Shown piece by piece: positions 1 to 20,093 of a DNA stretch of 20,237 nt (the first letter of the stretch is position 1; each line of letters begins with the position of its first letter). Below the pieces are notes generated by a model. That model ran no database searches. It saw only the letters and a program-made list of their open reading frames with translations, and had not been told where the DNA came from. The DNA is from a virus: the IMG/VR virus record IMGVR_UViG_3300025671_006770, positions 1 to 20,237 of that record; one strand, 5' to 3'. Position numbers and translations under genes: made by a program.

Positions 1-1966
1 GTGTTTTGTTTAGGTTTGCTGCCTGTCCTGTAAGTGCAAAAGAACCAGCAGCAAAACTTTCGCCTATGCCAAAGTCAATCTCTTGACCCGTGAGAGTAAA
101 CGACCCCGCATCAGCCGTAATATTCAGCGCCTTAACAAGATCAACATCTTGTCCAGAAAGCGTGAAGCTACCTGCATCTGCTGTAAGTTTGACTGCTTTA
201 TTTAGGTTTGCAGCCTGACCAGTTAAGGTAAACGCTCCAGCAGCAAAACTCTCGCCAATGCCGAAGTCGATCTCATTGCCCGTCAGAGTAAAGCTACCAG
301 CCTCTGCTGATACATTTACAGTTTTCTTGAGCGTTACGTCTTGGCCCGTAGAAGCAAATGAACCAGCATCGACAGAAAGATTTACATCTTTATTTAGATC
401 GACATCTTGACCACTTAGGGTGAAGCTACCGTTGTTTGCAGTAAGAACTTTACCCTCTACGAAACCTACAGCTTGACCACTAAGAATGAAGCCGCCAGCA
501 TTGATGGCAAGATTTATACCCTTATTAAGATTTACGTCCTGACCCGTAGAAGCAAACGATCCAGCATCTACTGAAAGGTTGATTGCTTTGGTAAGACCTA
601 CGTCTTGACCGCTAAGTGTGAAACCACCGTTGTTTGCAGCTAGGGCTTTGCCCTGCTCAAAACTTACGTCCTGACCAGCAAGAGTAAAGCTACCTACATC
701 TACACTAAGGTTTACAACTTTCTTGAGTGTAACGTCTTGTCCTGTAAGAGCGAAAGAGCCAGCATCAACAGAAAGGTTTATACCTTTATTTAGATCGACA
801 TCTTGACCGCTAAGTGTGAAACCACCATTGTTGGCGGTAAGGACTCTGCCCTCTACGAAACCTACAGCTTGACCAGCAAGGGTGAAGGAGCCACTATCTA
901 CACTAAGGTTTACTGTTTTATTAAGGGTAGCGTCTTGTCCCGTAAGAGTAAATGTACCTGCGTCCAGAGATACATTCAGCGCCTTGTTTAAGGTTGCATC
1001 CTGACCACTTAGAGTAAAGCCACCGTTATTTGCAGCTAGGACTCTGCCTTCTAGGAAATCAACAGCCTGACCAGATAGAGCAAAGCTGCCAGCATCAACG
1101 GTAAGATTTACACTCTTAACAAGGGTTACATCTTGGCCTGTGGTTGAGAATGAACCACTATCAGCAACAAAGTTTATGCCTCTGTTGAGGTTTACATCCT
1201 GTCCACTTAATGTAAATCCACCGTTGTTTGCGGTTAGAACTTTATTAGATGCAAAGGATACGTCTTGACCAGTAAGAGTAAAGAAACCAGCGTCTACACT
1301 AAAGTTGACGCCTCTGAGTAGACCAACGTCTTGTCCAGTAGATGTAAATGAACCACTATCAACAGTAAGAACAACGGCGTTTTTAAGACCAACATCCTGA
1401 CCGCTAAGGCTAAAGCCACCATTGTTTAGTGAAATGCTTTTGCCTTTGATAAGGCTTACGTCTTGACCTGTAACTGTAAAGCTGCCGCTTGGAGTAACTT
1501 CAGTAATAAGTTTTGCAGCGCCTTGCAGACTTAATGTAAATGTACCTGACGTAATAGAAAGGTTAAGGGCTTTATTAAATGTTACATCTTGACCTGTAGT
1601 GGTAAATGATCCAGCGTCAACAGATAGAACCTTGCCAAGATTTAAATCAACAGTCTGTCCACTCAAACTGAAGCTGCCACTATCAGCAGACATCTTAACC
1701 GCTTTGACTAGATTAACATCTTGTCCAGTTAAAGTGAAGCTACCATTATCAGCGGCAATATTAAGGGCTTTGAATAAATCAACAGTCTGACCAGTGAGCG
1801 AAAAAGAACCACTAGCTGAAACCAACAGAGCCTTAACAAAATTTACATCTTGGCCTGTAAGAGCGAAAGAGCCAGCATCAGCAGTAAGTTTTCTACCTAC
1901 ATTTAAATCTACCGCTTGACCTGTGATAGCAAAACTACCCGCATCGGCAGTCATACTATATTGAAC
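1..1966 (-). repeat. 66-bp coding tandem repeat with 198-bp super-period
   Basis: About 30 copies of a 66-bp (22-codon) unit lie inside the left-edge fibre gene. A higher-order period of three units (198 bp) is visible: the NNGG variant recurs every third unit at about 430, 625, 823, 1021, 1219 and 1417. Near the left edge a shortened 192-bp super-unit occurs twice, marked by GIGESFAAG at about 45-75 and 237-265. Copies are diverged, so this is an old array. Confidence 0.85.
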
Positions 1967-2023
1967 AGACGTTACACCCGCATCTGCGAACGGAGCAGCC
2001 GCTATAGGATGTAAGCCAAACAT
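1..2023 (-). CDS. Giant 22-residue-repeat virion/fibre protein (C-terminus beyond left edge)
   Basis: The frame is open from an ATG at 2023 to the left edge (about 674 residues) with no stop, so the gene is partial. After about 19 unique residues the protein is a tandem array of about 30 degenerate 22-residue repeats with core SFTLTGQDV followed by an L-x-K stretch and a short hydrophobic strand. Repeats of this type are known to me from tail or virion proteins of marine and rhizobial phages; the fold is probably all-beta. No enzyme motif or transmembrane segment is seen. The Shine-Dalgarno GAGGGG lies 8 bases before the ATG, and the upstream acetyltransferase gene ends 4 bases away, so the two are probably translated together. 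Likely role: structural fibre or surface protein; the exact location on the virion is unknown. Every third repeat carries NNGGF instead of DAGSF (see the repeat entry). Confidence 0.85.
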   Translation of the reverse strand, partial: MFGLHPIAAAPFADAGVTSVQYSMTADAGSFAITGQAVDLNVGRKLTADAGSFALTGQDVNFVKALLVSASGSFSLTGQTVDLFKALNIAADNGSFTLTGQDVNLVKAVKMSADSGSFSLSGQTVDLNLGKVLSVDAGSFTTTGQDVTFNKALNLSITSGTFTLSLQGAAKLITEVTPSGSFTVTGQDVSLIKGKSISLNNGGFSLSGQDVGLKNAVVLTVDSGSFTSTGQDVGLLRGVNFSVDAGFFTLTGQDVSFASNKVLTANNGGFTLSGQDVNLNRGINFVADSGSFSTTGQDVTLVKSVNLTVDAGSFALSGQAVDFLEGRVLAANNGGFTLSGQDATLNKALNVSLDAGTFTLTGQDATLNKTVNLSVDSGSFTLAGQAVGFVEGRVLTANNGGFTLSGQDVDLNKGINLSVDAGSFALTGQDVTLKKVVNLSVDVGSFTLAGQDVSFEQGKALAANNGGFTLSGQDVGLTKAINLSVDAGSFASTGQDVNLNKGINLAINAGGFILSGQAVGFVEGKVLTANNGSFTLSGQDVDLNKDVNLSVDAGSFASTGQDVTLKKTVNVSAEAGSFTLTGNEIDFGIGESFAAGAFTLTGQAANLNKAVKLTADAGSFTLSGQDVDLVKALNITADAGSFTLTGQEIDFGIGESFAAGSFALTGQAANLNKT

Positions 2024-3857: not shown

Positions 3858-5417
3858 TTATGCCTCTGTTGAATATTGATAAACTGTGTCGCTGTTTACT
3901 CCCACCATATACATGGTCTTACCACTGTCTCCGAAACAAATACCTCTAGCATAAATATCTTGAGAGTTTACTGAAAATGAGGTGTTAGAATACGAAGCGG
4001 TTGATACATCCCACGCTGTAGAAAGATCGTATTGGTATATTATATTTGATGTGCCTCCCAAGTAAAACATTTTTGTACCATCAGAGGAAAAATCAATCTC
4101 TTGGCTATTACCGTCTTGCGAGATCGTTGAAAAAGAAGTTGTATAAGATAAAGTGCTAATATCCCATGCGGTAGATAAACCGTACTCGTATACAGTTCCA
4201 TTTTGAATAGTGTACATTTTAGTGCCATCTGTCTTAAAAGCCAGACCAAGCGAAGCTGTGTTGGCATTGCTGCTCAAAGTCCCTAAAAGAGTGCTGGCAG
4301 TTGCTGTACCTGCGGAGGAGTAATCATACGCTGTACTAAGAGGTATGCTTCGAACAGTACCTTGTATTCTATCGACAGCATAAACTTGATTTCCACTATC
4401 ACCAAACCTTGCTCCGTTAGCTCGAGAATGACCAGTACTTACAGAACCCGCATGGCTTGCGGTGCTAACATCAAAAGCCGTAGATAGTGTATAAAATTGG
4501 AAGCTATCTGAGGTTTCACCTGTGACTATCATAACAGTCCCATCGGGAGATAAGTCTAGCGCTGTAGGATTAACTTCTTGGCTAGAAACACTATAACTTA
4601 CACTGTCATAGGAAGCGCTTCCAAGCATCCACCCTTGAACAAGTGAAAGGTTAAGAGTGACAAAACGGGTTGTAGTTGAAATTCCGTCAGAGGCACTTAA
4701 ACGTACTTTTACATTCCCAACATCAGCAGTATCTGTTGACGGATCAAAAGTATAAACACCCGTGCTTTGGTTGATCGAAGTTGCTGAAACCAATTGATTA
4801 GGCAAAGCATTGTTCGTGGTTGGATACGCAATCCCGTAAGTAATACCGAATCCCTCTGGATCATACGCTACCATCGTCACCGTAGAAGTTGATCCATCAT
4901 TATTTAAATCGTGCGAAGTTGGAGGTTCAGTAGTAATGACAGGACTTTCATCGACGCCAATACTGACCCGTTTCCACGCGGAAGTCGTGCGAATGTACAA
5001 CTGATCTGCCGCCAAATCGTAAGCTAAGTCGCCTTCTGATGGACTGCTTACGGCATCAATAGTAGTCTTATCTGCATAAGTCGTGACACCAGAGCCACTT
5101 CCACCACCACCAGAAGCAGCGCCAGCCACCTCTGTAACTGTAATCAAATCACCAGTTGTTGCGCCTGTCGCAAGTGTAACGGTGTTTGAAGCGGCAGAAA
5201 TAGTAACATCAGTCGAGAACAATTTTGCGCCATTAAGATAAACACTGACGTTATCAGCATTCGTTATTCCACCAGTTACCGTGAAAACTGTTTGACCAGA
5301 GGTCGCCGTGAACTCTTGTTCTGCTAAAGAGACAGCCGCAATCGCAGCCCCACCAATCGTGACTGAACCGCTTGTTGCTGAGATGTCATTAGTTTGATGA
5401 TTGATGGTAATTGACAT
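3858..5417 (-). CDS. Multidomain tail fibre with propeller-like repeats
   Basis: The 519-residue protein has clear domain order. Residues ~33-97 form a fibre-type beta domain (F-T-V-T-G-G then V-Y-L-N-G then G-D-L-I-T-V-T). A Gly/Ser linker follows at 101-110, then a short segment of the kind S-P-S-E-G-D-L-A-Y. Residues ~155-258 resemble a cadherin-like Ig fold (D-P-E-G-F-G-I-T-Y, S-A-S-D-G-I-S). Residues ~267-519 contain five ~50-residue repeats with F-S-S-D-G-T-K-M-F-Y and Y-x-L-S-T-A-W-D-V-S-T-A-S cores, as in beta-propeller-like repeats of phage tail proteins. Such repeats probably bind host-surface glycans or proteins; the ligand is unknown. The start follows the previous stop by 3 bases. 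Confidence 0.8.
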   Translation of the reverse strand: MSITINHQTNDISATSGSVTIGGAAIAAVSLAEQEFTATSGQTVFTVTGGITNADNVSVYLNGAKLFSTDVTISAASNTVTLATGATTGDLITVTEVAGAASGGGGSGSGVTTYADKTTIDAVSSPSEGDLAYDLAADQLYIRTTSAWKRVSIGVDESPVITTEPPTSHDLNNDGSTSTVTMVAYDPEGFGITYGIAYPTTNNALPNQLVSATSINQSTGVYTFDPSTDTADVGNVKVRLSASDGISTTTRFVTLNLSLVQGWMLGSASYDSVSYSVSSQEVNPTALDLSPDGTVMIVTGETSDSFQFYTLSTAFDVSTASHAGSVSTGHSRANGARFGDSGNQVYAVDRIQGTVRSIPLSTAYDYSSAGTATASTLLGTLSSNANTASLGLAFKTDGTKMYTIQNGTVYEYGLSTAWDISTLSYTTSFSTISQDGNSQEIDFSSDGTKMFYLGGTSNIIYQYDLSTAWDVSTASYSNTSFSVNSQDIYARGICFGDSGKTMYMVGVNSDTVYQYSTEA

Positions 5418-8062: not shown

Positions 8063-9370
8063 TTACTCACTTTTCTTTGGTGGTAGCTCCGCATTAGCTA
8101 ACAGAGCATTTACAATGTCATCCTGATCACTCAGGTCTATGTTAGCGCCATTCAAGTTACGTAGGTAACTACCAAGTTCTCTCAGGTCATGTGGCGCTAC
8201 ATCACCTGCACATATCTTTGGCATGAGGTCAAAGTTAAGACCGTTGATATGCCAAAGTGGTTCAACTAACTGCTTATTCAGTACATCAAAAATAGAATTA
8301 ATATAGCTTTCCATAGAGCGTAGGAATAAGTCAGTTTTAGATTTGCTTAACGCATAAGAGCCATTCGCCCCTGCACCCAACATCAAGAACTCAGCCATAA
8401 CGCTCCTAGCAATATCGTGCTGATAGCGGCTGATGATAGGATTGATATCAATGTTGCGAGAGCCATTACTTGTAATAAGCTCAATATCGACAATCCTTTG
8501 GTTGGTTGGTTTTCCATCTATATCTCTATATACATCAGAGGGCAACAAAGCATAGCCTTGCTCATTGAACTTAAGGTCTCTTAGGATCTTCTCCATCTGA
8601 CCACGTACTGATACTTGATCAGCAGTTGCATCAGGAGAAAGATACTCTGCAGCAATCCTTCCAATAGGAACACCATGAAGCTCTCTCTCAACAGCTATGG
8701 CTTCCACACTCTGAAAGTTCTTTAGGTACTGATATGAAGTATAAGCGTTCCGTAAGATAGAACGACCAGAAGGGTCATTATTTATACTTGTTGTTTTATA
8801 GTGCAACAACTTATTAATTGGAATATAGGTAGTTTTAAGACCGTAGTTCTGCTCTTGCTTTACACCTAATACATCCCCTGTTGTTTTATCAACATCAAAC
8901 TCTTCTATGGTCCACTGCGCCCTAGAAGCCAGCTTCCTTACGCCTATCCTACCATCAGAATATCTGCTGTAAGATTTAGGGTCTTCTGTTCTAGGTCCAC
9001 GTCTACGTTTATAGACCACCTCAAACAAAGAAAACCCAAACGTCAAATGCGAAAGGGCTTCTGCAATATGATCATCAAGAGAATGTTCCATGTCCTTTAG
9101 GACACCTTCGACAAACTCTGCTTCTTTTCTACCTGCTGCTGTATCTTTAGCTGGTTCAACATAATAATCTACATCACGTAGAACCTGCTCTGTGGCGTAC
9201 ATAATTGCGCCAATAGTGCTATCATTGTCTCGCATCTCACGAAACTTATTGATAGCCTTCTTACCTTTGATCTCTTGCAGAAACTCATCTGCACGAATAG
9301 TACCATTGCGGGTCTGTTCCCCACCTTGGCCTAACTCTAGTTTACCTAGCTGTTCACTAATCTTCTTCAT
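8063..9370 (-). CDS. Phage portal protein (Mu gp29 / DUF935-like)
   Basis: The 435-residue protein fits a portal protein, the dodecameric channel at one head vertex through which DNA enters and leaves. Support: the early segment M-R-D-N-D-S-T-I-G-A-I-M-Y-A, the central L-A-S-R-A-Q-W-T-I-E-E-F-D, the stem-region pattern K-L-L-H-Y-K-T followed by G-R-S-I-L-R-N-A-Y, and the helical E-R-E-L-H-G-V-P-I-G-R. These resemble the Mu gp29 / DUF935 type, whose usual length is a little greater. The gene lies directly after the large terminase: the terminase stop and this ATG are adjacent with no spacer. No head protease, scaffold or major capsid gene follows within the window, which is unusual. Confidence 0.85.
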   Translation of the reverse strand: MKKISEQLGKLELGQGGEQTRNGTIRADEFLQEIKGKKAINKFREMRDNDSTIGAIMYATEQVLRDVDYYVEPAKDTAAGRKEAEFVEGVLKDMEHSLDDHIAEALSHLTFGFSLFEVVYKRRRGPRTEDPKSYSRYSDGRIGVRKLASRAQWTIEEFDVDKTTGDVLGVKQEQNYGLKTTYIPINKLLHYKTTSINNDPSGRSILRNAYTSYQYLKNFQSVEAIAVERELHGVPIGRIAAEYLSPDATADQVSVRGQMEKILRDLKFNEQGYALLPSDVYRDIDGKPTNQRIVDIELITSNGSRNIDINPIISRYQHDIARSVMAEFLMLGAGANGSYALSKSKTDLFLRSMESYINSIFDVLNKQLVEPLWHINGLNFDLMPKICAGDVAPHDLRELGSYLRNLNGANIDLSDQDDIVNALLANAELPPKKSE

Positions 9371-10720: not shown

Positions 10721-11090
10721 TTTTTCCAAGCAACGACATCAAAGTGTTTATCGCACCCTCATCAAGATCGGGGTCTTCAGACTGCTCAACCTCATTAATA
10801 GTTTGAGTAGGAGACCAACCACCCTTAGACCGTAGATAAAACTCAGCAGCTTTAAAATCGCCATCAAGTGCCTGTTGAACAACAATAGCACCAACCTGAC
10901 CTATAATCTCAGCACGTTCTTCTGAGATCATCTGTCCATAGATCTTATAGAGAGTATTCGTAGAACGTGGGGCATTCTGATACTTCTGTATCGACCCCAT
11001 AATGTCTTTCATCGACACACCGTTACGAATACCCTCACGGATCTTCTTTGCGACAACTTCGCTATATGGTAATGCTCTGCTATCAGTCAC
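10701..11090 (-). CDS. terS: Probable terminase small subunit
   Basis: The 129-residue protein lies just upstream of the large terminase and overlaps it, the usual place for the DNA-recognition subunit. A helix-turn-helix-like N-terminal part (about residues 12-52) is followed by an oligomerisation helix (E-R-A-E-I-I-G-Q-V-G-A-I-V-V-Q-Q-A). The segment G-D-F-K-A-A-E-F-Y-L-R-S-K-G-G-W-S at 77-93 is like that of many phage small terminases. The C-terminal tail is acidic, as expected for a region contacting the large subunit. The start is GTG at 11090, with AGGGGG 9 bases upstream. Two perfect hairpins lie immediately 5' of the gene and may be part of its control or of the packaging site. Confidence 0.78.
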   Translation of the reverse strand: MTDSRALPYSEVVAKKIREGIRNGVSMKDIMGSIQKYQNAPRSTNTLYKIYGQMISEERAEIIGQVGAIVVQQALDGDFKAAEFYLRSKGGWSPTQTINEVEQSEDPDLDEGAINTLMSLLGKNEDNVE

Positions 11091-11105
11091 AATCTACGGC
11101 CCCCT

Positions 11106-11144
11106 GTTAGCTTACCAGCTAACGGTTAGTCGATTAAAAATCGA
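11106..11144. promoter_or_regulatory. Twin perfect hairpins just upstream of terS
   Basis: Two adjacent inverted repeats lie 16-54 bases upstream of the terS GTG. The first, 11106-11123, has a 7-bp stem GTTAGCT/AGCTAAC with a 4-base loop. The second, 11128-11144, has a 7-bp stem GTCGATT/AATCGAC with a 3-base loop. Neither is followed by a T-tract, so they are not classical terminators. Candidates are an mRNA 5' structure controlling terS, an operator pair, or part of a cos/pac site. Confidence 0.6.
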
Positions 11145-11655
11145 CCATTGTTAAAATTCCCCAAGTGCATCGGCATGACTGTCTCTCAAAACAACAATAC
11201 CCTAAAGATTTGTCATGGTTGACTTGGGAAAACCCTACTTAAGTATTATACTTAAGTTTATGGGATATATTATATATTAATATATATCCCATTTACTATA
11301 GTTTATATACTTAAGTATATCTCTTATGTATATATACAGGCATTTTTTGGGATTTTAGACACAATTTTTACAACTTTTTTATAAGTTATTGATAACAAAC
11401 GAATCTTTTTTGTACTTTTTTTTGTTTTCGGATATGGGGTGGGTAACGCTCGGATAGCCGAATCACCCGTAGGAATATGGGGGGCCCCAACTTGGGTATG
11501 TCAAGGGGGCAAAAGGATAGGTTGACAAACGAGAAATATATACGCTCGGATAGCGAATCGGCTACCATCTAGCAGGTTTATTTCACAAGTATAATTTGAC
11601 CAGATAGTAAAAGATTGACCAAACGATCAAATAATAACGTATTGAAACAATAAAC
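11145..11655. other. Non-coding region between the late unit and the small-gene unit
   Basis: No convincing gene is found in these ~510 bases. Contents: the AT-rich palindrome cluster; a C/G-rich part with GGGGCCCC (11481-11488) and the 11-base palindrome CCCAACTTGGG (11486-11496); two copies of ACGCTCGGATAG (11446-11457 and 11542-11553), each followed closely by CGAATC; and AAGGATAGGTTGAC at 11513-11526, which recurs in the divergent control region. A TTGACA reads leftward at 11500-11505, but the best -10-like CATATT is 19 bases away, so this is only a weak candidate for the late promoter. Confidence 0.5.
11237..11320. repeat. AT-rich palindrome cluster with ACTTAAGTA boxes
   Basis: Three copies of an ACTTAAGT core lie at 11237-11244, 11250-11257 and 11309-11316. 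The first pair forms a near-perfect 21-base palindrome (11237-11257). The third lies in the perfect 16-base palindrome ATATACTTAAGTATAT (11305-11320). Between them is an 11-bp inverted repeat, ATGGGATATAT/ATATATCCCAT, at 11260-11292. The stretch is nearly pure A+T. It could be a protein-binding array, an easily melted origin element, a late-promoter region, or part of a packaging site. The sequence alone does not decide. Confidence 0.6.
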
Positions 11656-12872: not shown

Positions 12873-13030
12873 ATTTCGTCAATCCACTCTTTGCATTGTC
12901 TCTTTGTTGGCAGGCTCAATATCCACTCTCCATCACTGTCAATCACTCGCCAATCTAGGCCAGTATTTGCCTCATATCCGTCAACCGTGTATCCTTTGTA
13001 AGTGTAGAGGCTTTGTCCGATACGTTTCAT
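12863..13030 (-). CDS. Small phage protein, 55 aa (first gene of small-gene unit)
   Basis: This is the first gene of the leftward small-gene unit. Its ATG follows GGAGTC with an A-rich spacer. The protein has a Y-T-Y-K-G-Y-T-V segment at residues 9-16, a W-R-V-I-D-S-D-G-E-W-I core at 27-37, and an ending T-K-R-Q-C-K-E-W-I-D-E. It is soluble and without a signal peptide. It resembles in layout the 59-residue protein encoded on the other side of the control region (T-Y-K-G-H-S-I at the start, C-K-E-Y-V-D at the end), so the two may be distant paralogues. Function unknown. Confidence 0.65.
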   Translation of the reverse strand: MKRIGQSLYTYKGYTVDGYEANTGLDWRVIDSDGEWILSLPTKRQCKEWIDEMGD

Positions 13031-13093
13031 TTTTGACTCCGTTTGTTGTCGTTTCTATGCATTATATATGCACCGATTCGCAGCAGATGTAAA

Positions 13094-13131
13094 CTATCCT
13101 GAAGTATAATTTTATATATCTTGAAGGATAG
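13094..13131. repeat. Imperfect inverted repeat around an AT core
   Basis: CTATCCTGAA at 13094-13103 pairs with TTGAAGGATAG at 13121-13131 (one-base bulge), enclosing an A+T-rich loop. It sits between the leftward -10-like box and the rightward -35-like box, an operator-like position. The right arm is part of the AAGGATAGGTTGAC string also present at 11513-11526. Confidence 0.5.
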
Positions 13132-13276
13132 GTTGACGCAAGTGTCCGAATCAGTGTATTCTGGAACAAATAGAGCGCAAAGCGCCGAATCGGTGGAGTC
13201 AAGGGCTAGTTGTTGAAACGCGGTCGCAAAAGGTGGAAGGATGGGCAGGTGCGAATCAGTTGCAAAAATGTCACAC

Positions 13277-13330
13277 AGAACGAATCAGGAACAAAGAACG
13301 AATCATGAATCTGGAACGAATCAGGAACAC
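13277..13330 (+). repeat. Three 18-bp direct repeats (GAACGAATC iterons)
   Basis: Three head-to-tail units of exactly 18 bp lie at 13277-13294, 13295-13312 and 13313-13330. Each begins (A/G)GAACGAATCA; the first and third continue GGAACA. A looser copy of the core, GCGAATCAG, lies at 13252. Each unit holds a CGAATC, hence a GANTC site. The arrangement looks like replication iterons or a tandem operator. Confidence 0.75.
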
Positions 13331-13342
13331 TCGAAAATTTGG

Positions 13343-13452
13343 CCTGACCCCCTCCAGTGGAAATATGGAACCCCCTCCAGTGGAAATTAGGCTTGACCCC
13401 ACCAGTGGAAATATGGTAGACTGATTCGTGAGAGGCCACCAGTGGAAATATA
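13343..13452 (+). repeat. Four spaced copies of the CCAGTGGAAAT motif
   Basis: AGTGG cores start at 13356, 13379, 13404 and 13441, giving spacings of 23, 25 and 37 bases. Each is preceded by a C-rich run (TGACCCCCTCC, ACCCCCTCC, TGACCCCACC, GGCCACC) and followed by AAATATGG, AAATTAGG, AAATATGG or AAATATAG. The last copy ends 17 bases before the first rightward start codon. All copies face right. Candidate roles: phage-specific promoter, iteron set or operator. Further copies occur inside downstream genes. Confidence 0.75.
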
Positions 13453-13468
13453 GAAAGGACCAGCAAAT

Positions 13469-13618
13469 ATGTTCAACATCAGGGTGAAATATAAAGACGA
13501 AGTGAAGTCCAGAGTAACTGCGACAGTGGGAGAATATTCAAACTACCTAGAAAATATGTTGCATGTTATGACACAAAATGCTAACATTGATTGGGTAAAA
13601 GTAGAGAGGGTATCATAA
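13469..13618 (+). CDS. Small hypothetical protein, 49 aa
   Basis: This is the first gene of the rightward unit, starting 17 bases after the last AGTGGAAAT motif. A short AAAGGA site lies 9 bases before the ATG. The protein begins MFNIRVKYKDEVKSRVTATV and ends D-W-V-K-V-E-R-V-S; it looks like a small soluble alpha/beta protein. No family is recognised. The stop is followed one base later by the next ATG. Small first genes like this are common in phage early regions and often act on the host, but nothing here shows a target. Confidence 0.6.
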   Translation: MFNIRVKYKDEVKSRVTATVGEYSNYLENMLHVMTQNANIDWVKVERVS

Positions 13619-13619
13619 T

Positions 13620-13799
13620 ATGGCAGAGCTTGGCAAAAGAATTACTTACAAGGGACACTCAATCATTCCAGTATATTTTGAGGAGAGTAAGAAATTAGTG
13701 TTTGACTTGTATATGGGAATCACCTATACTCGTTATATAGACACTTGGAACAGTGTTGAAGAGTGTAAAGAATACGTCGATAGACCTACAAAACTTTAA
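13620..13799 (+). CDS. Small hypothetical protein, 59 aa
   Basis: The 59-residue protein begins MAELGKRITYKGHSI. It continues with an aromatic-rich middle (Y-M-G-I-T-Y-T-R-Y-I-D-T-W) and ends V-E-E-C-K-E-Y-V-D-R. The order YKG, then a central aromatic/acidic strand pair, then CKE(Y/W)(V/I)D is shared with the 55-residue protein at 12863-13030 on the opposite strand. No membrane segment. The ATG starts one base after the previous stop, with GAGAGGG 7 bases upstream as ribosome-binding site. Confidence 0.65.
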   Translation: MAELGKRITYKGHSIIPVYFEESKKLVFDLYMGITYTRYIDTWNSVEECKEYVDRPTKL

Positions 13800-13810
13800 G
13801 GAGAATCATA

Positions 13811-13972
13811 ATGATGGAAGAGCGTGAAACATATTATGAGTTGTACAAAGATGGTAGTTGCCATTCATCATATATACTTTATGAGGATGCGCTTGAGCAA
13901 GCTCTACATTGTTTAGATGATGACTGTGCAGAGATATATAAAGTGGTTGTATATGAAGAGAGGGTGCTGTAA
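13811..13972 (+). CDS. Small acidic protein, 53 aa
   Basis: A GGAG 7 bases before the ATG (GGAGAATCATAATG, a context repeated exactly at 14261-14274) gives a strong start; a second ATG follows immediately. The protein is acidic and Tyr-rich (E-T-Y-Y-E-L-Y-K-D-G-S) with a helical middle, Y-E-D-A-L-E-Q-A-L-H-C-L, and two further cysteines. It has no recognisable family. The stop overlaps the next start as TAATG. Confidence 0.62.
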   Translation: MMEERETYYELYKDGSCHSSYILYEDALEQALHCLDDDCAEIYKVVVYEERVL

Positions 13973-14271
13973 TGGAAAAGATCATCAGAGATATCAAAGA
14001 CATCGAAGGCGACATTGATAAATTGATCAGTCGCGCAGAGGAATATCGTAAGGATGCAGAGCGTGGCATTAACGTAAACCATACACGTGAAGGTGATATG
14101 TCGTGGACTAAACAGGACAAGATTAATAGCCTGTTCGAGTATCTGGAAGATGCAAAGAATGACATTGATCGAATGAAAGATGACCTCAAGGTCGTAAAAG
14201 ATTACTTGACTAATCTGCTGGATGATGTACAATACGAATCAATCAGACAGAAAGCTACAGGAGAATCATAA
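13972..14271 (+). CDS. Coiled-coil hypothetical protein, 99 aa
   Basis: The 99-residue protein is almost wholly charged helix: residues 1-35 and 50-85 show heptad-like spacing of Ile, Leu and Val (I-I-R-D-I-K-D-I-E-G-D-I-D-K-L-I and I-N-S-L-F-E-Y-L-E-D-A). They are joined by a polar link containing N-H-T-R-E-G-D-M. It probably forms a helical hairpin and oligomerises. No catalytic motif or signal peptide. GAGG lies 8 bases before the ATG. Both ends overlap neighbours as TAATG. Confidence 0.7.
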   Translation: MEKIIRDIKDIEGDIDKLISRAEEYRKDAERGINVNHTREGDMSWTKQDKINSLFEYLEDAKNDIDRMKDDLKVVKDYLTNLLDDVQYESIRQKATGES

Positions 14272-14498
14272 TGGCACACACATGGACCACAGTAGGATAC
14301 AGAGGGTATGACTTGGACATTGTTGTCGAGGGAGACCAGTGTATATATGAAGGTATTTATGATAACATCAGGCTGCGTAAGAAGAGCGGAGAAGCTATGT
14401 CAGAGCGTTTAGAGAAAGCCCTGATGAAGGAATATGGGGATGATTACTTCGCAGAATATCTGTACGAGCTTGGCTCGTATGTCGATAACGAATACTAA
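14271..14498 (+). CDS. Hypothetical protein, 75 aa
   Basis: The protein begins MAHTWTTVGYRGYDLDIVVEG with a beta-hairpin-like N-terminal half. A helical, acidic C-terminal half follows (S-E-R-L-E-K-A-L-M-K-E-Y-G-D-D-Y-F-A-E-Y-L). No family is recognised. A GGAG stands 7 bases before the ATG, in the same 14-base context as the start at 13811. It shares TAATG overlaps with both neighbours, so it is translated as part of the same chain. Confidence 0.68.
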   Translation: MAHTWTTVGYRGYDLDIVVEGDQCIYEGIYDNIRLRKKSGEAMSERLEKALMKEYGDDYFAEYLYELGSYVDNEY

Positions 14499-14686
14499 TG
14501 AAAATCCTCTTCATCATAATGTTCTCCTATATCATCATGCTGATTGTTGTCGGAATATTGGTGACAGTAGGGATGGAAAAGGAGAGCATTAACTCTATAA
14601 ATATTTACTTGACGATAGTTCAAATATCGTTCATAATTGTAATCATAAAGCGAATCAAGGAGATTGCACAATGGCACTACCAGTAA
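14498..14686 (+). CDS. Two-TM small membrane protein (holin-like candidate)
   Basis: The 62-residue protein has two hydrophobic helices, at about residues 2-25 (I-L-F-I-I-M-F-S-Y-I-I-M-L-I-V-V) and 36-50 (I-Y-L-T-I-V-Q-I-S-F-I-I-V-I-I). A short acidic/polar turn (M-E-K-E-S-I-N) joins them, and a basic tail K-R-I-K-E follows. Two helices and a charged tail match the shape of class II holins, and a cell-wall hydrolase without a signal peptide is encoded about 460 bases downstream in the same unit. That is topology plus context only. Its ATG overlaps the preceding stop (TAATG), and its end overlaps the next gene by 16 bases. Confidence 0.62.
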   Translation: MKILFIIMFSYIIMLIVVGILVTVGMEKESINSINIYLTIVQISFIIVIIKRIKEIAQWHYQ

Positions 14687-14916
14687 ACTTAATCAAAAAC
14701 CTACTCAATGAACAGAAGGGTCGTTTCTTCATTGTTGATGTTGTCAAAGAGAACGGGGACAAGCGTAGACTTAACGGTAAGGTCGTAGAAATCCGCGATA
14801 ATGGTTTGGTCACTATCAAACTTGGTGGAACCAAAGATCAATACCGTTCCTTCTACACTGACAAGGTGCAGCGTATCCATCAACGTAAACGTGCCATATT
14901 CTGTGTTGGAGCGTGA
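14671..14916 (+). CDS. Small SH3-like phage protein, 81 aa
   Basis: The 81-residue protein begins MALPVNLIKNLLNEQKGRFF and then runs through strands F-I-V-D-V-V, L-N-G-K-V-V-E-I and L-V-T-I-K-L-G, with a basic C-terminus. The pattern (short helix, then a small barrel with R-F-F-x-V and R-x-L-N-G) resembles small phage proteins of the DUF2693 kind, a tentative match from memory. A nucleic-acid or protein-binding role is possible. The start lies 7 bases after a GGAG and inside the end of the membrane-protein gene. Confidence 0.65.
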   Translation: MALPVNLIKNLLNEQKGRFFIVDVVKENGDKRRLNGKVVEIRDNGLVTIKLGGTKDQYRSFYTDKVQRIHQRKRAIFCVGA

Positions 14917-14917
14917 T

Positions 14918-15145
14918 ATGTCATACACAATGATAAAAAACTGCAAGATGGATTGGGACACAGAGATTCACAAATTCACCTTTGTCACTGGTGGATGTCC
15001 CATCGTGGCACCAGATAGCCTTGGCGATCTTATAAGCTCACTGCAAGACCTATATAAACAAATTGCAGAGGGTGGAATTTATAACCATGAACTACCAATG
15101 GAAATCAAGGTTGAAGGTGGTCAACTCTGGACGGACATTGAGTAA
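14918..15145 (+). CDS. Hypothetical protein, 75 aa
   Basis: The real start is the ATG at 14918, six bases after a GGAG and two bases after the previous stop; the frame is open further upstream but that part lies across the previous gene. The protein is MSYTMIKNCKMDWDTEIHKF followed by a beta strand, a helix (L-G-D-L-I-S-S-L-Q-D-L-Y-K-Q-I) and the ending E-I-K-V-E-G-G-Q-L-W-T-D-I-E. It is soluble and acidic, with no known family. The stop overlaps the next start as TAATG. Confidence 0.65.
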   Translation: MSYTMIKNCKMDWDTEIHKFTFVTGGCPIVAPDSLGDLISSLQDLYKQIAEGGIYNHELPMEIKVEGGQLWTDIE

Positions 15146-15540
15146 TGATTGGTCTTGAGTGTCTAGCAGTTGCGGTTTTCTTTGAGAGCCGCAGCCAACC
15201 CATCGAAGGACAGTATGCTGTTGCTGAGGTGGTGATGAACCGTGTGGAGAGTGACAGGTGGCCCAACACTATCTGTGATGTTGTCTTCCAAGATAAACAA
15301 TTCTCGTTCACACATGATGGAGCGTCAGATCATATACACAAGTACACTGACAATCCGATTGACTGGAGAGCCGCTCTAATGGCCCGTACAGTAGCCTTAG
15401 AGGTTTTTGGCAGGGGAGATACCTCAATCACCTCTACCCACTACCACAACCTCTCTGTGTCGCCCTCATGGACAAAGGAGTATTTAAAGGATGGCAGAAT
15501 TGGAGACCACATATTCTATACCGCCCCTAGTGGAAAATGA
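15145..15540 (+). CDS. SleB-like cell-wall hydrolase (candidate endolysin)
   Basis: The 131-residue protein matches the Hydrolase_2 / SleB family, which cleaves peptidoglycan glycan strands. Key segments are present in order: F-F-E14-S-R (the family's catalytic glutamate), A-V-A-E-V-V-M-N-R-V (25-34), C-D-V-V-F-Q-D-K-Q-F-S (44-54), S-T-H-Y-H-N (97-102), W109 and H-I-F-Y (122-125). The length equals a bare catalytic domain. There is no signal peptide, so it would need a holin to reach the wall. Its place beside small early genes rather than in the late unit is unusual if it is the endolysin; a role in DNA entry or remodelling is an alternative. Its last codons carry an AGTGGAAA motif copy. Confidence 0.85.
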   Translation: MIGLECLAVAVFFESRSQPIEGQYAVAEVVMNRVESDRWPNTICDVVFQDKQFSFTHDGASDHIHKYTDNPIDWRAALMARTVALEVFGRGDTSITSTHYHNLSVSPSWTKEYLKDGRIGDHIFYTAPSGK

Positions 15541-15664
15541 GTTGATCAGGATGGGGATACTCCCCGCAACGCAATTAGAGGAACTAGAGAGAGTGTGTCC
15601 AAGGGATAGATGGGCGCATCTACCTACAGACCCCTACGATGAAAATGGAGAGATAATATTCTAA
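15491..15664 (+). CDS. Small hypothetical protein, 57 aa, overlapping the hydrolase
   Basis: A frame from the ATG at 15491 to a TAA at 15662-15664 fills the gap between the hydrolase and thyX. Its stop overlaps the thyX start as TAATG. The protein (MAELETTYSIPPLVENELIR at the start, D-R-W-A-H-L-P-T-D-P-Y-D-E-N-G near the end) is acidic, without membrane segment or known family. It overlaps the hydrolase gene by 50 bases; GGAG lies 10 bases before the ATG. A shorter start at ATG 15551 is possible. The CCCCTAGTGGAAAATG motif encodes P-L-V-E-N in this frame. Confidence 0.5.
   Translation: MAELETTYSIPPLVENELIRMGILPATQLEELERVCPRDRWAHLPTDPYDENGEIIF
15524..15539 (+). repeat. Dispersed CCCCTAGTGGAAAATG motif copy
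   Basis: At the very end of the hydrolase gene, 125 bases before the thyX start, a C-run plus TAGTGGAAAATG repeats the control-region motif. It also resembles the second copy inside the primase gene (CCCCTCTAGTGGAAAATATG). Confidence 0.55.
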
Positions 15665-16284
15665 TGATTAAAGCAACCCTGATGGACTACATGGGCAGTG
15701 ATATTACTGTCGTTAATGCTGCGAGAGTATCTTTCGGCAAGAAGTCCAGTAACACATACACAACAGACAAGGATGAGAAGTTGATCTGGTATCTAGCAGA
15801 GCACAGGCATATGTCACCCTTTGGTCATTGCTTTGCTTCCTTCCATGTTAAGGCTCCTATCTTTGTAGCACGTCAACTTGTGAAGAATAAGTTCCTACGT
15901 TGGAATGAGGTCAGCCGCAGATATGTCGATGATGAGCCTGAGCTGTACGAAGCCCCCATCTGGCGTGGCAGGGCTGAAGATAAGAAACAGGGTAGTGAAG
16001 GTGAGGTAATAAGCAATGCAAATGTTTTCTACCACAACACACAGTCATTGATGATTTACAAGCAACTTATTAATGAAGGTGTATGCCCAGAGCAAGCACG
16101 TATGGTACTGCCACAGTCTATGATGACTGAGTGGTACTGGTCAGGTAGCCTTGATGCCTTTGCTGATATGTGTAACCTGCGTTGTGCGTCTGATACCCAA
16201 GTGGAGACACAGAATGTTGCGATACAGATTAGTCGTAAAATGCGTAGTCTATTTCCCGTATCATGGGAAGCATTAGTGAGGTAG
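15664..16284 (+). CDS. thyX: Flavin-dependent thymidylate synthase ThyX
   Basis: The 206-residue protein makes dTMP from dUMP using FAD, NADPH and methylene-tetrahydrofolate, supplying thymidine for phage DNA. Family features: N-A-A-R-V-S-F at 18-24, H-R-H-M-S-P-F-G-H at 47-55, the signature region R70-Q-L-V-K-N-K-F-L-R-W-N-E-V-S84-R-R-Y87, A-R-M-V-L-P-Q at 145-151, and E-W-Y-W-S-G-S-L at 156-163. The signature is atypical: the usual R-H-R before x7-S reads K-N-K here, although the serine and the following R-R-Y are kept. The length is normal for the family. The ATG overlaps the previous stop. Confidence 0.92.
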   Translation: MIKATLMDYMGSDITVVNAARVSFGKKSSNTYTTDKDEKLIWYLAEHRHMSPFGHCFASFHVKAPIFVARQLVKNKFLRWNEVSRRYVDDEPELYEAPIWRGRAEDKKQGSEGEVISNANVFYHNTQSLMIYKQLINEGVCPEQARMVLPQSMMTEWYWSGSLDAFADMCNLRCASDTQVETQNVAIQISRKMRSLFPVSWEALVR

Positions 16285-16287
16285 AGG

Positions 16288-16524
16288 ATGACAGGTATAA
16301 TAGGTGTAGAAACAGTAAAAGAAAACGAGGATGGTAGTGCCGACTATGTGTTTCATTTTGATGCACATGCGCGTGGGCTTCTGGCAGAGGAAGGTTTGAA
16401 GTTGGTGCTTTACTGTGCAGCCGCCAAGATGGACATGCAGTTGGTGTATGATTTTATAGAGGATCATATTAGGTACAACAAAGATGAATGGGATGATCAA
16501 GGCAAGTCGGAGAATCTTACATGA
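16288..16524 (+). CDS. Hypothetical protein, 78 aa
   Basis: The 78-residue protein begins MTGIIGVETVKENEDGSADY, with a beta hairpin (V-F-H-F-D-A-H) and two helices (L-A-E-E-G-L-K-L-V-L-Y-C-A-A-A and Q-L-V-Y-D-F-I-E-D-H-I). It is acidic, with no membrane segment. The layout recalls small phage proteins often found beside nucleotide-metabolism genes, but I cannot name a family. GAGG sites lie immediately before the ATG, which is 3 bases after the thyX stop. Its stop overlaps the next ATG as ATGA. Confidence 0.68.
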   Translation: MTGIIGVETVKENEDGSADYVFHFDAHARGLLAEEGLKLVLYCAAAKMDMQLVYDFIEDHIRYNKDEWDDQGKSENLT

Positions 16525-16691
16525 CAAAAAAACATAGTTTTGGAATCCCATTAAAAGACATCAGACCTATGACTGATGAAGAGAGGCAGAGGGCGACAGA
16601 GAAAAAGGAAACTAACAATGACAGAGCAAGAAATACTAAAAATGTGCAGAAATCTGGCAAAAAAGTACAAAAACAGGCAAGAATACGATGA
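16521..16691 (+). CDS. Small basic protein, 56 aa, overlapping the sigma-like gene
   Basis: The ATG overlaps the previous stop (ATGA) and follows a strong GGAG by 8 bases. The protein begins MTKKHSFGIPLKDIRPMTDE and is then highly basic and polar (E-R-Q-R-A-T-E-K-K-E, K-S-G-K-K-V-Q-K-Q-A-R-I-R), probably disordered or nucleic-acid binding. It overlaps the first 74 bases of the sigma-like gene in another frame, long for this genome. The strong start makes it likely that ribosomes enter here. It could serve mainly to couple translation of the sigma-like gene. Confidence 0.5.
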   Translation: MTKKHSFGIPLKDIRPMTDEERQRATEKKETNNDRARNTKNVQKSGKKVQKQARIR

Positions 16692-17163
16692 TTTGGTATC
16701 TGAGGGGGTTGTTAAGTGTCTTGAGGTTTTGAACAAAGGTGATGCTGATAAGGCAGCACTGAAATCTCATGCTAGGACTGCCATGCAGGATTATTACAAC
16801 CACAAAAGGAAGGTTGTGCAAGTCCCTGTACATGGTCAGGCACACTCTATGTCTAGGCATCAAGAGACAAGTAGCTGGACTGCTATGGCGCTGCAAAAAG
16901 CCTTGTACACCCCTTCAGTGGAAATTAGAGAGGAAATGGCAATGGGTGAATCTCCAGAGACAATTCTGGAGCGTAAACAGTTCATCAGACATGTCTTTAT
17001 GACTGCGTTTAATTGTCTTACTCACGACGAGTGGACAATTATTCGTATGCGGTATTGGGATGGTATGACACAAGATGCTGTAGGTAAGGAGATGTGCCAC
17101 AACCAAAAGTGGGTATCTCGTAGGGAAAAGTCAGCGCTTGAAAAAATCTGTAACAATTTGTGA
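16618..17163 (+). CDS. Phage sigma-70-like transcription factor
   Basis: The 181-residue protein has the two core regions of a minimal sigma-70 factor. Region 2 is at about 15-70: Y-D-D-L-V-S-E-G-V-V-K-C-L-E-V-L, then a helix ending H-K-R-K-V-V-Q-V-P. Region 4 is at about 133-178: L-T-H-D-E-W-T-I-I-R-M-R-Y-W-D-G-M-T-Q-D-A-V-G with the recognition helix H-N-Q-K-W-V-S-R-R-E-K-S-A-L. Regions 1 and 3 are absent, as in ECF-type factors. It probably redirects host RNA polymerase to phage promoters. I chose the ATG at 16618, 8 bases after AAGGA; the frame is open 14 codons further upstream without a better site. An AGTGGAAATTAG motif copy lies inside the gene at 16917. Confidence 0.75.
   Translation: MTEQEILKMCRNLAKKYKNRQEYDDLVSEGVVKCLEVLNKGDADKAALKSHARTAMQDYYNHKRKVVQVPVHGQAHSMSRHQETSSWTAMALQKALYTPSVEIREEMAMGESPETILERKQFIRHVFMTAFNCLTHDEWTIIRMRYWDGMTQDAVGKEMCHNQKWVSRREKSALEKICNNL
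16910..16928 (+). repeat. Dispersed CCCC-x-CAGTGGAAATTAG motif copy
   Basis: Inside the sigma-like gene, a C-run is followed by TTCAGTGGAAATTAG. The part from AGTGG on (AGTGGAAATTAG) is identical to the second copy of the control-region cluster (13379). It encodes T-P-S-V-E-I-R there, between regions 2 and 4. Confidence 0.6.
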
Positions 17164-17249
17164 TGTCTAAAATATTGAAACTTGCCTGTATCTATATACG
17201 TAAGTTTTAATCATTATGATGATAATAAACTAAAGAAGGAAACATAAGT
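17164..17249. other. Short spacer with hairpin before the ParB-like gene
   Basis: The only real gap in the rightward unit. It contains an inverted repeat with outer arms AAACTT (17178-17183) and AAGTTT (17202-17207) and inner GTAT/ATAC pairing, followed by TTAAT and then by ATTAT/ATAAT arms at 17213-17226. It may be a weak terminator or an internal regulatory site; a new promoter for the replication genes could also lie here. Confidence 0.4.
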
Positions 17250-18116
17250 ATGGATGATGACGAATGGGAACAAAGTTTGCTTAACGCAACAAAACATGAT
17301 GGTATGTTGTATCACGAGATCTGTAAGTGGTCGCCATATAAAGAAGAGACTATCGACAAGATTGCAGATAACATGGTTCGTAATGGGTATGATAAAGATC
17401 AACCTGTCGTAACATATGAGGGTGCTATTCTTGATGGTCGTCATCGTTATGTTGCAGCACAAAAGGTTGGTGTCGATCCAATTATGGTAGAGTTTAATGG
17501 CACACGACAAGAAGCCATTGATTTTGTGACAATGCGTCAAGTTGATCGTGGTCACTGGAGTAATCAAGAAAAGGAATACTTCTATGTGAAACGTGCTGAG
17601 GCTTTGGGTGTTCGTAAGCGTGAAGACAGTCTGAAGCAGAACACTGCCGATACGCCAAATGGCGCAACGGTTCCCTCTCAAGAAGAACATGCAGATGCTC
17701 TTGGGGTAGGCCACAGGACTGTTAACCGCTGGGAAAAAGACCGCAAGGAAATTATGTCTGATCCTATTTTGTCGTCAAAGACTGACACATTCGAGGGTTA
17801 TAGGGAAGCAAAGCAGGAGATTAAAGAACGTAAGGCTCGTACTCTTATTGTGCCAGACTATGACATTAACGAGGCTATGGGTGCGATTAAAGGTATCGCT
17901 CAAATGTATGGTCAACAATACACTGGCGATCCAGAGGACGCCGCACAGGTGCTATTGGACAGAATAATGGAAGGATATGAAATAGATGACATAGGACTAA
18001 GTATTGCTAGAGACTATGCTAAATGGTTTCTGTCGCTAAAGAAAGTAATGGATCTTGTTGAACCAGAACTTGAAGACTTCTTAACAGATAAACCTAACCT
18101 GACCGTTGTAAACTAG
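17250..18116 (+). CDS. ParB-like nuclease/DNA-binding domain protein
   Basis: The 288-residue protein carries a ParB/sulfiredoxin-type N-terminal domain. The core runs I-D-K-I-A-D-N-M, Q-P-V-V-T-Y-E-G-A-I-L-D-G-R-H-R-Y-V-A-A (51-70) and D-P-I-M-V-E-F. In this fold the G-R-H-R loop binds nucleotide. A helical part with the ParB-like W-S-N-Q-E-K-E-Y-F-Y-V-K follows, then a helix-turn-helix at about 143-165 (S-Q-E-E-H-A-D-A-L-G-V-G-H-R-T-V-N-R-W). The C-terminal ~110 residues are helical and acidic. Phage proteins of this type act as regulators or replication or partition-like factors; which applies here is open. AAGGAA lies 8 bases before the ATG. Its position between the sigma-like and replication genes fits a regulatory role. 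Confidence 0.78.
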   Translation: MDDDEWEQSLLNATKHDGMLYHEICKWSPYKEETIDKIADNMVRNGYDKDQPVVTYEGAILDGRHRYVAAQKVGVDPIMVEFNGTRQEAIDFVTMRQVDRGHWSNQEKEYFYVKRAEALGVRKREDSLKQNTADTPNGATVPSQEEHADALGVGHRTVNRWEKDRKEIMSDPILSSKTDTFEGYREAKQEIKERKARTLIVPDYDINEAMGAIKGIAQMYGQQYTGDPEDAAQVLLDRIMEGYEIDDIGLSIARDYAKWFLSLKKVMDLVEPELEDFLTDKPNLTVVN

Positions 18117-18126
18117 GAGACCCGAA

Positions 18127-18522
18127 ATGACATCAGCAGCAAAAGTATGGAATACAGCAAAGCAACAGTGCTTGGATTTGAATTTGAAACCAACAGTCGA
18201 TAATGCAAACAAACTTATTCGACGTGGTGGATCATCTGTGAAGAATATGCGTAACTATAATGCACGTAGTGAGGTCAAAGATATTTCACAGAAACCTTAC
18301 ACTAATGAGTTTGGTGATCAAGAAGCATTTGGTTCTATCTGTGATCGAAATATAGAATATGCAGAACAATTCGTAGACAAGAACTATAAAAAATTCCAAG
18401 GTGGTGTAAGCAACATGACAAGTGCAGCAATGTACATTGTTCGTTGTCAACGTGAAAGGCTTAATATGTTAACAGTGGATGATGACACCCCTTTGAAATT
18501 CAAATCTTCACGTAAATCATAA
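18127..18522 (+). CDS. Hypothetical protein upstream of the primase, 131 aa
   Basis: The 131-residue protein begins MTSAAKVWNTAKQQCLDLNL. It is helical and mildly basic, with segments D-N-A-N-K-L-I-R-R-G-G-S-S-V-K-N-M and a C-terminal helix Y-I-V-R-C-Q-R-E-R-L-N-M-L, then a basic tail. No family is recognised and there is no membrane segment. The strong GGAG 8 bases before the ATG and the 10-base gap to the ParB-like gene place it in the same unit. Its position before the primase-helicase suggests a replication accessory role, for example DNA binding or helicase loading, which is inference only. Confidence 0.7.
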   Translation: MTSAAKVWNTAKQQCLDLNLKPTVDNANKLIRRGGSSVKNMRNYNARSEVKDISQKPYTNEFGDQEAFGSICDRNIEYAEQFVDKNYKKFQGGVSNMTSAAMYIVRCQRERLNMLTVDDDTPLKFKSSRKS

Positions 18523-18539
18523 ATAGAAAGGAGAGTCAC

Positions 18540-20093
18540 ATGACAGAGAAAGCGCATCAACCGTGTCCCTATGTGTTGTGTGGCTCTTCTGATGCTTTCA
18601 GTTGGAACACTGGGGGTTATGGGAAGTGCCATGCTTGTGATAGGGCATATCCATCAAAAGATGAAACCTTTGAGTGGGCGCAAGAGGCTTACCCAACAAA
18701 GTATGCGGAGACTGTAGTGGAAATAAGGAAACCTGACCCCTCTAGTGGAAAATATGTACCTATGAGGGGTATCACAAAAGAGACCATGCAGGATTTCAAC
18801 GTCCTGACATATGACGACAAACAAGAATACATATACCCTTCTGGGGGAATTAAGGTACGCTGTATTGCTGATAAGAAGTTCTACACCAAAGAGGGGTTCA
18901 AGGGTGACGAACTGTTTGGTATGAACCTGTTTACTGCAGGTTGTTCTAAGACTGTGACAATCACAGAGGGCGAACTGGACGCACTGTCAGTAGCACAGAT
19001 GCTCAAGAGCCAGTACATCAATCCTGTTGTGTCGTTGCCCTCTGCTACCCCTTCCAAGAAAATGTGGGAGAATTGTGCAGACTGGTTAAACAGCTTTGAG
19101 CGTATTGTGTTATCTGTTGATAACGATGAAGCAGGTAATGCTGTAGCTGATCGTGTGGCACGTCTATTCCCAAACAAGGTGTATCGTGTACCACATGACA
19201 AGTACAAAGACGCTAATGATTTCTTGCGTAACAATGCAGCACAAGAGTTTAAGTCTGCTTGGTTCAAGCCTCGTAAGCATACGCCAGAGAACATCTTAAA
19301 TAGCACAGAACAATTCTTGTCGCTGTATCGGGATACCCCAGAACATCAGTACGTACCCACAGGAATACAGGCACTTGATGACAAGATCCTTGGTTTGATG
19401 CAGGGACACTTCACTGTGATCAAGGCCCCCACAGGAATTGGTAAGACAGAGATCATGCGCTATCTTGAATATAACATGCTAGAGCGTAAGATACCTATTG
19501 CAGCATGGCATCTGGAAGAGACAAAGTTACGCAGTCTTCTTGGTCTTGTGTCGTATCATAGGAAAGATAATCTCACACGCAGAGACTTGATCGAAGAGAA
19601 AGGCGCAGAAGACCTTGTTGTTACCGCTATCGAAGAACTGACCAAAGATGAAAACTTCTATCAGTTTTATTTACCAGATGGTCAAGGATCTGATGAACTG
19701 TGTGATCAGATACGCTTCTTTAGCCAAGCCTGTGATTGTAAGTTTGTATTCTTTGAGCCAATACAGGACGTGGTTGCAGGTACGTCAGAAGAAAGCAAAG
19801 AGGCTATGCTTGCAGACTTGTCTATTAGACTGTCAAAGTTAGCTGCAGAATTAAACGTAGGGATCGTGACAATCGCCCATACCAATGAAAACGGAGACCC
19901 AAAGTATTGTAAGATGATTGGTCAACGCGCCTCTGTTATCATTGACCTGCAGCGTGACAAAGAGTCAGAAGACTATGATGAACGTAATACTACGTATATC
20001 AGCGTACAAAAAAACCGCCCCTGCAGCGAAGAGGGACGGGCTGGAAAGATGAAGTTTGATTCAGACAGTTTTACACTAAGAGAGGTAATATAG
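18540..20093 (+). CDS. DNA primase-helicase (T7 gp4-like)
   Basis: The 517-residue protein has the full layout of a bifunctional replicative primase-helicase. An N-terminal zinc finger uses C9-x4-C14 and C30-x2-C33 (the usual first pair is C-x2-C). A Toprim domain has I-T-E143-G-E-L-D and S-V-D194-N-D196-E-A-G. A RecA-like helicase domain has Walker A A296-P-T-G-I-G-K-T303, W-H-L-E326-E-T, Walker B F-V-F-F-E-P-I-Q-D410, the T-I-A-H448 sensor, and the C-terminal Q-K-N-R-P with E-G-R-A-G-K. It unwinds DNA and lays primers at the fork with the polymerase that follows. GGAG lies 7 bases before the ATG. Two AGTGGAAA motifs sit in the zinc-finger-to-Toprim linker. Confidence 0.93.
   Translation: MTEKAHQPCPYVLCGSSDAFSWNTGGYGKCHACDRAYPSKDETFEWAQEAYPTKYAETVVEIRKPDPSSGKYVPMRGITKETMQDFNVLTYDDKQEYIYPSGGIKVRCIADKKFYTKEGFKGDELFGMNLFTAGCSKTVTITEGELDALSVAQMLKSQYINPVVSLPSATPSKKMWENCADWLNSFERIVLSVDNDEAGNAVADRVARLFPNKVYRVPHDKYKDANDFLRNNAAQEFKSAWFKPRKHTPENILNSTEQFLSLYRDTPEHQYVPTGIQALDDKILGLMQGHFTVIKAPTGIGKTEIMRYLEYNMLERKIPIAAWHLEETKLRSLLGLVSYHRKDNLTRRDLIEEKGAEDLVVTAIEELTKDENFYQFYLPDGQGSDELCDQIRFFSQACDCKFVFFEPIQDVVAGTSEESKEAMLADLSIRLSKLAAELNVGIVTIAHTNENGDPKYCKMIGQRASVIIDLQRDKESEDYDERNTTYISVQKNRPCSEEGRAGKMKFDSDSFTLREVI
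18714..18756 (+). repeat. Motif doublet AGTGGAAA inside the primase gene
   Basis: Two copies start at 18716 (AGTGGAAATAAGG) and 18744 (preceded by CCTGACCCCTCT, followed by ATATG), 28 bases apart. The arrangement mirrors copies 2 and 3 of the control region (25 bases apart, with TTGACCCC between). It encodes V-E-I-R-K-P-D-P-S-S-G-K-Y in a linker of the primase. Confidence 0.65.

Follow-up and report, generated by a model that had tools for sequence, protein, structure and literature searches.

An oriented repeat in the early region of CRP-6-type roseophages resembles the landing site of a protein that brakes or otherwise controls early transcription

Our comparative analysis of CRP-6-like roseophages revealed a short, directional motif that forms a tandem array at the predicted early promoter and recurs inside early genes, where, judged from codon usage, it is maintained by selection at the DNA level through codon choice. 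We give an even chance to the model in which the motif is an asymmetric ∼19-bp operator through which a DNA-binding protein controls the early promoter, while the copies inside genes act in a stoperator-like manner. No published account of gene control in CRP-6-type phages was found, and the analysis provides a predicted early promoter, a defined candidate operator and conserved in-gene sites, all of which are directly testable. Putative directional protein sites that lie within genes and are kept through codon choice are unusual.

The analyzed DNA, here called the window, is a 20,237-base virus record and represents a fragment of a CRP-6-like roseophage. Its primase/helicase and terminase (TerL) are 76% and 69% identical, respectively, to those of Roseobacter phage CRP-6, and by these sequence matches the phage belongs to the CRP-6-type RCA roseophages. 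CRP-6 is a short-tailed phage of an RCA-lineage roseobacter, and phages of its type are ubiquitous in the ocean; the 2019 description reports an integrase for CRP-1 to CRP-3 only and is silent on promoters, repeats and sigma factors (PMC6918029). Late genes occupy the left half of the window and are encoded on the minus strand, and the right half carries plus-strand early genes; the two halves diverge from a control region at ∼13100–13450. Gene calls were simple longest-ORF calls. For comparison, 80 viral contigs were fetched via related primases and further contigs via the motif pattern; the long records of eleven relatives were mapped for motif copies, and a set of 137 records was compiled, each of which covers the primase region plus 1.3 kb or more upstream of it.

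Some features of these genomes lie apart from the motif. Positions 2–2023 (minus strand) encode a protein that consists of repeats of the unit GSFxLTGQDV and is probably located in the tail or on the surface. In the region preceding the small terminase gene, the 38 dereplicated relatives show two oriented elements, TGCCGAT (29/38) and GGGACCCT (24/38), neither of which occurs in reverse (0 each); in the window they lie at about 11090–11200 (minus strand) and might represent a late leader or a packaging site. Beyond the reach of the window, CRP-6 (L009) has a conserved early gene at 10907–11449 with a DNA-methyltransferase family match (phrog_799, E=3e-28).

The core of the motif, AGTGGAAA, occurs in eight rightward copies in the window, all at the positions listed in the original prediction, and in one leftward copy at 4390–4397, which had been placed near 4389; the chance expectation for both strands is 0.79 (maximum 3 in 100 shuffles). 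Four copies on the plus strand form the array in the control region, at 13349–13367, 13372–13390, 13397–13415 and 13434–13452 (cores 13356–13363, 13379–13386, 13404–13411 and 13441–13448), and these alone carry the exact full unit CCAGTGGAAAT, with a C-run 5′ of the core. The other four, also on the plus strand, lie inside three early genes, as had been claimed, and deviate from the full unit at one or two flanking bases. One lies at 15522–15540 (core 15529–15536), where the cell-wall-hydrolase gene (15145–15540) has its 3′ end, one in the sigma-factor gene at 16910–16928 (core 16917–16924; codons PSVEIRE), and two in the primase/helicase gene (18540–20093, plus strand; from gene call and homology) at 18709–18727 (core 18716–18723; codons VVEIRK) and 18737–18755 (core 18744–18751; codons DPSSGKY). 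The preceding C-run holds for the copies with cores at 15529, 16917 and 18744 but not for that at 18716. The argument that the reading frame differs between the gene copies is right, and all three frames are occupied. Not noted in the original prediction were the predicted promoter around copy 3, the abundance of GANTC in the 5′ flank and the recurrence of this layout across a whole phage group.

The same orientation is found throughout the group. In the 137 records, related ones included, the core occurs 400 times on the early strand and once on the opposite strand, and a looser extended pattern 1019 times versus 0 (overlapping starts counted too); in the eleven long-record relatives, the copies likewise lie almost all on the early strand. 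Chance density on both strands would have spoken against a functional site, and the genome-scale scan instead shows a strong one-strand bias. The unit of ∼19 bp reads CCCC-N2-C-AGTGGAAA-WW, with variants including CGATGGAAA and CGWGGGAAW that are at times mixed within one array, and its consensus, GACCCCNCCAGTGGAAATTAGG, is asymmetric and has no inverted symmetry. Every phage has a tandem head-to-tail array of 3–7 copies before the first early gene. In the array comparison, which comprised 65 dereplicated arrays with three or more copies, the copies are spaced 18–64 bp apart, and the minimum of 18–19 bp fits the length of a ∼19-bp site. The CRP-6 array is built of the CGATGGAAAA variant, and a divergent relative (G014, L356; 2280–2420) carries an array of the CGWGGGAAATGTTC variant with the promoter TTGACC-N17-TATAAG.

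Further repeats were noted beside these arrays. A four-copy array is present at 8390–8470 on the 8.9-kb contig of a phage that otherwise differs and has unrelated replication genes (G018, L219), which suggests that arrays may pass between phage lineages; about ten GCCCTAGTCGGTT repeats lie upstream of this array. A second repeat family, (CGAATCAG)TTGCAAAAATGTCAC, is present in several copies upstream of the array in CRP-6 (L009, 44400–44900) and in the control region of G015 (L349/L348). In L280, an unrelated contig that contains long low-complexity repeats, a nearly perfect repeat of 23 bp was treated as a possible chance match.

A sigma70-type promoter of the form TTGACC-N17-TAnnnT-GATTC, with one motif copy filling its spacer, is predicted in 48 of the 65 distinct arrays. 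In these 48 arrays, the distance from TTGACC to the −10-like hexamer is 16–18 bp, mostly 17; common hexamers are TAGACT, TAGGGT, TAAGGT, TAATCT and TATAAA, often with GATTC directly after. Promoter copies have higher −10 scores than the remaining copies (p=3e-18). For 19 of the tallied promoter copies, the next copy follows 37 bp downstream, just beyond the predicted start. In the window, the predicted −35 element TTGACC (13393–13398, plus strand) overlaps with its CC the C-run of copy 3, at the same place as in the 48 of 65 dereplicated arrays. Copy 3 lies within the 18-nt spacer between this −35 element and the predicted −10 element TAGACT (13417–13422, plus strand), and copy 4 follows 37 bp after copy 3, just beyond the predicted transcription start. 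The first early ORF, as read from the sequence, comprises 49 aa (13469–13618, plus strand) and is preceded by a Shine-Dalgarno-like AGAAAGGA at 13452–13459. The distant relative G017 differs in that its copies precede the predicted promoter instead of lying inside it.

Directly after the −10 element stands GATTC (13423–13427), a GANTC (CcrM-type) site that recurs there in many arrays and suggests control by host GcrA/CcrM. The 5′ flank of the array (13140–13340), with its CGAATCAG/CGAATCATG repeats, is rich in GANTC, and positions 13006–13500 (495 bases) contain 11 such sites (22/kb) compared with 2.0/kb elsewhere. In most mapped relatives, the control region has 8–34/kb versus 1.4–2.4/kb outside; G001 and G009 are exceptions. 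The GANTC-rich surroundings, the direct repeats in a divergent control region and the doublet in the primase gene would also suit replication-origin iterons or primase recognition sites, which were among the functions originally proposed. Such sites would leave unexplained that the motif is kept at the codon level in many early genes while late genes show no excess on the sense strand, and sites for an outgoing fork would be expected on the late-gene strand of the left arm, where they are absent; we consider this explanation improbable.

Codon usage points to selection on the DNA itself. With the arrays excluded, sense-oriented copies in the early genes of 13 mapped sequences number 67 (core) and 48 (extended). 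Gene-wise shuffling of synonymous codons gives expectations of 9.7 and 4.2 (200 shuffles; null maximum 19 core and 12 extended); in antisense, the early genes contain 1 core and 0 extended copies. Late genes show no excess in sense orientation (11 core and 3 extended versus 8.5 and 2.9 expected), and their 8 extended antisense copies versus 1.6 expected may result from the simple gene caller, through spurious ORFs opposite the early region. The in-gene copies use all three frames (22/14/13), and among the 65 non-array copies of the mapped genomes 49 lie inside early genes and 8 are intergenic. Counted over non-independent occurrences, with related phages among them, the primase sequence DPxSGxY is encoded with AGT-GGA in 60/60 cases while the adjacent residue varies (AGT makes up 24% of Ser codons and GGA 20% of Gly codons), so AGT GGA AA at the window site with core 18744 is kept in 60/60; TCA GTG GAA at the sigma-gene site (core 16917) is kept in 23/23 among relatives; the core of the primase site that has no C-run (core 18716) is kept in 19/22; and LPSVEKP in DNA polymerase is encoded with TCA-GTG-GAA in 45/45 motif phages versus TCA-GTA-GAG or TCA-GTG-GAG in 5/5 motif-free relatives. 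Taken together, strand bias, codon-level upkeep and group-wide recurrence lend good support to the original prediction of a phage-specific functional site.

The in-gene copies do not resemble sigma70 promoters: their best −35/−10 score is no different from that at random positions in genes (p=0.83), and no second conserved box at a fixed distance was found within about 40–50 bp of 61 dereplicated single copies. Both results bear on the proposal that the motif is a promoter element of the phage sigma factor and that the in-gene copies serve as middle promoters within the early operon. The candidate reader is the product of 16618–17163 (plus strand), a sigma-70-family protein (Sigma70_r4 E=3.8e-10, r2 E=6e-4) with a two-domain sigma fold whose fold matches are sigma factors. 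Its gene is present in nearly all motif phages and missing from motif-free relatives; among the 137 records, 120 have both gene and motif, 9 neither, 5 the motif only and 3 the sigma gene only. The five sigma-less motif records include L295 and G014, which represent one genome, and L017, which stops short of the place that the gene occupies in the window; the same may hold for L079, and L013 shows one stray match only. However, the nine records without motif and sigma gene are Cobaviruses or have Cobavirus-like gene sets that share the primase, so that the co-absence is not independent evidence and may reflect one event. The relatives that keep the genes without the motif copies, which the original prediction had regarded as counterevidence, are only phages in which array and sigma gene are missing as well.

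Several observations argue against this role of the sigma factor, which we rate as unlikely. Usually a phage has only one array copy within a promoter, which is of the housekeeping sigma70 type; copies in tandem at intervals of 19–27 bp could not accommodate a promoter each, and the second box expected at a fixed distance from in-gene copies is missing. Moreover, the C-terminal HTH diverges strongly among phages that share the nearly constant motif (mean identity over 25 sequences 0.35, compared with 0.45 for the N-terminal domain), and in G014, which has a variant array, no sigma gene was detected in 26.5 kb. A switch in sigma specificity between CRP-6 and its sister G015 was also considered and dropped, as the AGTGGAAAT and CGATGGAAAA variants mix within single arrays. 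Separately, eight contigs (L050–L055, L087, L089) combine a CRP-6-type primase with a Cobavirus-like gene set, and the primase module seems to have moved between phage groups.

The ParB-like protein (17250–18116, plus strand), whose binding site the motif had also been proposed to be, was rejected as reader because its gene is not conserved: it was not found in the other mapped motif genomes and is present in few relatives only. The 66-aa protein hyp19 co-occurs with the motif but is small and acidic and thus unlikely to read DNA, and a WYL_2 protein was discarded on weak or no matches in several motif phages. No repressor was recognised among the proteins scanned, and PF00940 (T7-type RNA polymerase) gave no match in 16 records, nor in the positive control. 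A host-encoded regulator whose site is exploited by the phages would account for a near-constant motif despite very different early genes, including in G018, which has little else in common. We think such a regulator improbable as well: the exact site occurs in 1 of 248 Rhodobacteraceae genomes and array-like doublets in 5 of 395, two of which (G306, G291) resemble insertion-sequence ends. This near absence of host sites favours a phage-encoded reader, which is the most likely case.

We adopted the operator/stoperator-like model based on the copy in the promoter spacer, the copy past the start and the co-directional in-gene copies, a layout near that of the stoperators in mycobacteriophage L5. 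According to this model, a DNA-binding protein would bind the motif as an oriented unit. At the array, it would block or throttle host RNA polymerase at the early promoter, and at the in-gene copies it would halt or slow the elongating polymerase, as L5 stoperators do. PF00589 integrases gave no match in 12 records, which makes a classic use in lysogeny unlikely; together with the lytic isolate, the lack of a detected integrase indicates that the site would more likely serve the shutdown or timing of early transcription than the maintenance of lysogeny. An activator or a factor that modifies RNA polymerase could also account for the orientation along transcription and the site in the promoter spacer. 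The lambda Q protein is captured at a binding element in the late promoter, and a phage protein captured at the promoter-spacer and in-gene copies could make polymerase processive through the long early operon. The position between −35 and −10, the strict orientation and the restriction to early genes would fit such a positive factor; however, tandem copies upstream of the promoter and repeated reloading within genes are not known for Q-like factors, and no antiterminator gene was recognised, so that we regard it as rather unlikely.

Repeated terminal sites are also a feature of IS21-family elements, and insertion-sequence-like ends in Rhodobacteraceae, which we take to be IS21, contain CTCAGTGGAAATTA; these ends differ in having no C-run, and the likeness spans ∼12 bp in a pattern-selected hit. 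Four such contig ends (L366, L368, L369, L363) carry CTCAGTGGAAATTATGCGC and TCAGTGGAAATCAACA, with partial likeness to the motif. An IS21-like origin was rejected, as genome-scan hits look scattered, plasmid matches are unconvincing and the Mu-type transposase PF22483 (IstA) is absent from 13 motif-phage records (control positive in 3 genomes). The early operators of temperate phages such as lambda OR/OL are tandem and overlap the early promoter, as do the putative ones of the roseophages; in contrast to them, the roseophage sites are non-palindromic, have a single orientation and occur within genes too.

Stoperators of cluster A mycobacteriophages (L5, gp71 repressor) share with the roseophage motif that the site is asymmetric and numerous in the genome, that one copy sits on the early promoter and that the scattered copies point along transcription; in L5, site orientation follows transcription and inverted sites fail (PMC9283540). 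The L5 stoperator is a 13-mer, whereas the roseophage unit comprises 19 bp with a C-run plus GTGGAAA, and the tandem array of 3–7 copies is not as in L5. L5 stoperators lie in short intergenic gaps, whereas most scattered roseophage copies are inside coding sequence, and the L5-type repressor is a monomer with two DNA-binding domains (gp71), whereas the roseophages have no recognised repressor. Moreover, stoperator phages are temperate and use the site for immunity, whereas the roseophage is lytic, infects a marine alphaproteobacterium and has no integrase that we could find. Given the different sequence, the mostly in-gene copies and the lack of a recognised integrase or repressor, we do not class the motif as a member of the stoperator system; no mention of Roseobacter was found in the stoperator papers that were searched, and a literature search for the motif returned nothing relevant among the matches listed. 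A tentative extension, which we consider possible but doubtful, is that an abundant group of lytic, integrase-less marine phages has evolved, independently of mycobacteriophages, an L5-like brake on both initiation and elongation, with in-gene roadblocks in conserved coding sequence that serve an early-to-late switch and not immunity. If the in-gene sites stop elongation, stoperator-type control would not be confined to temperate actinobacterial phages.
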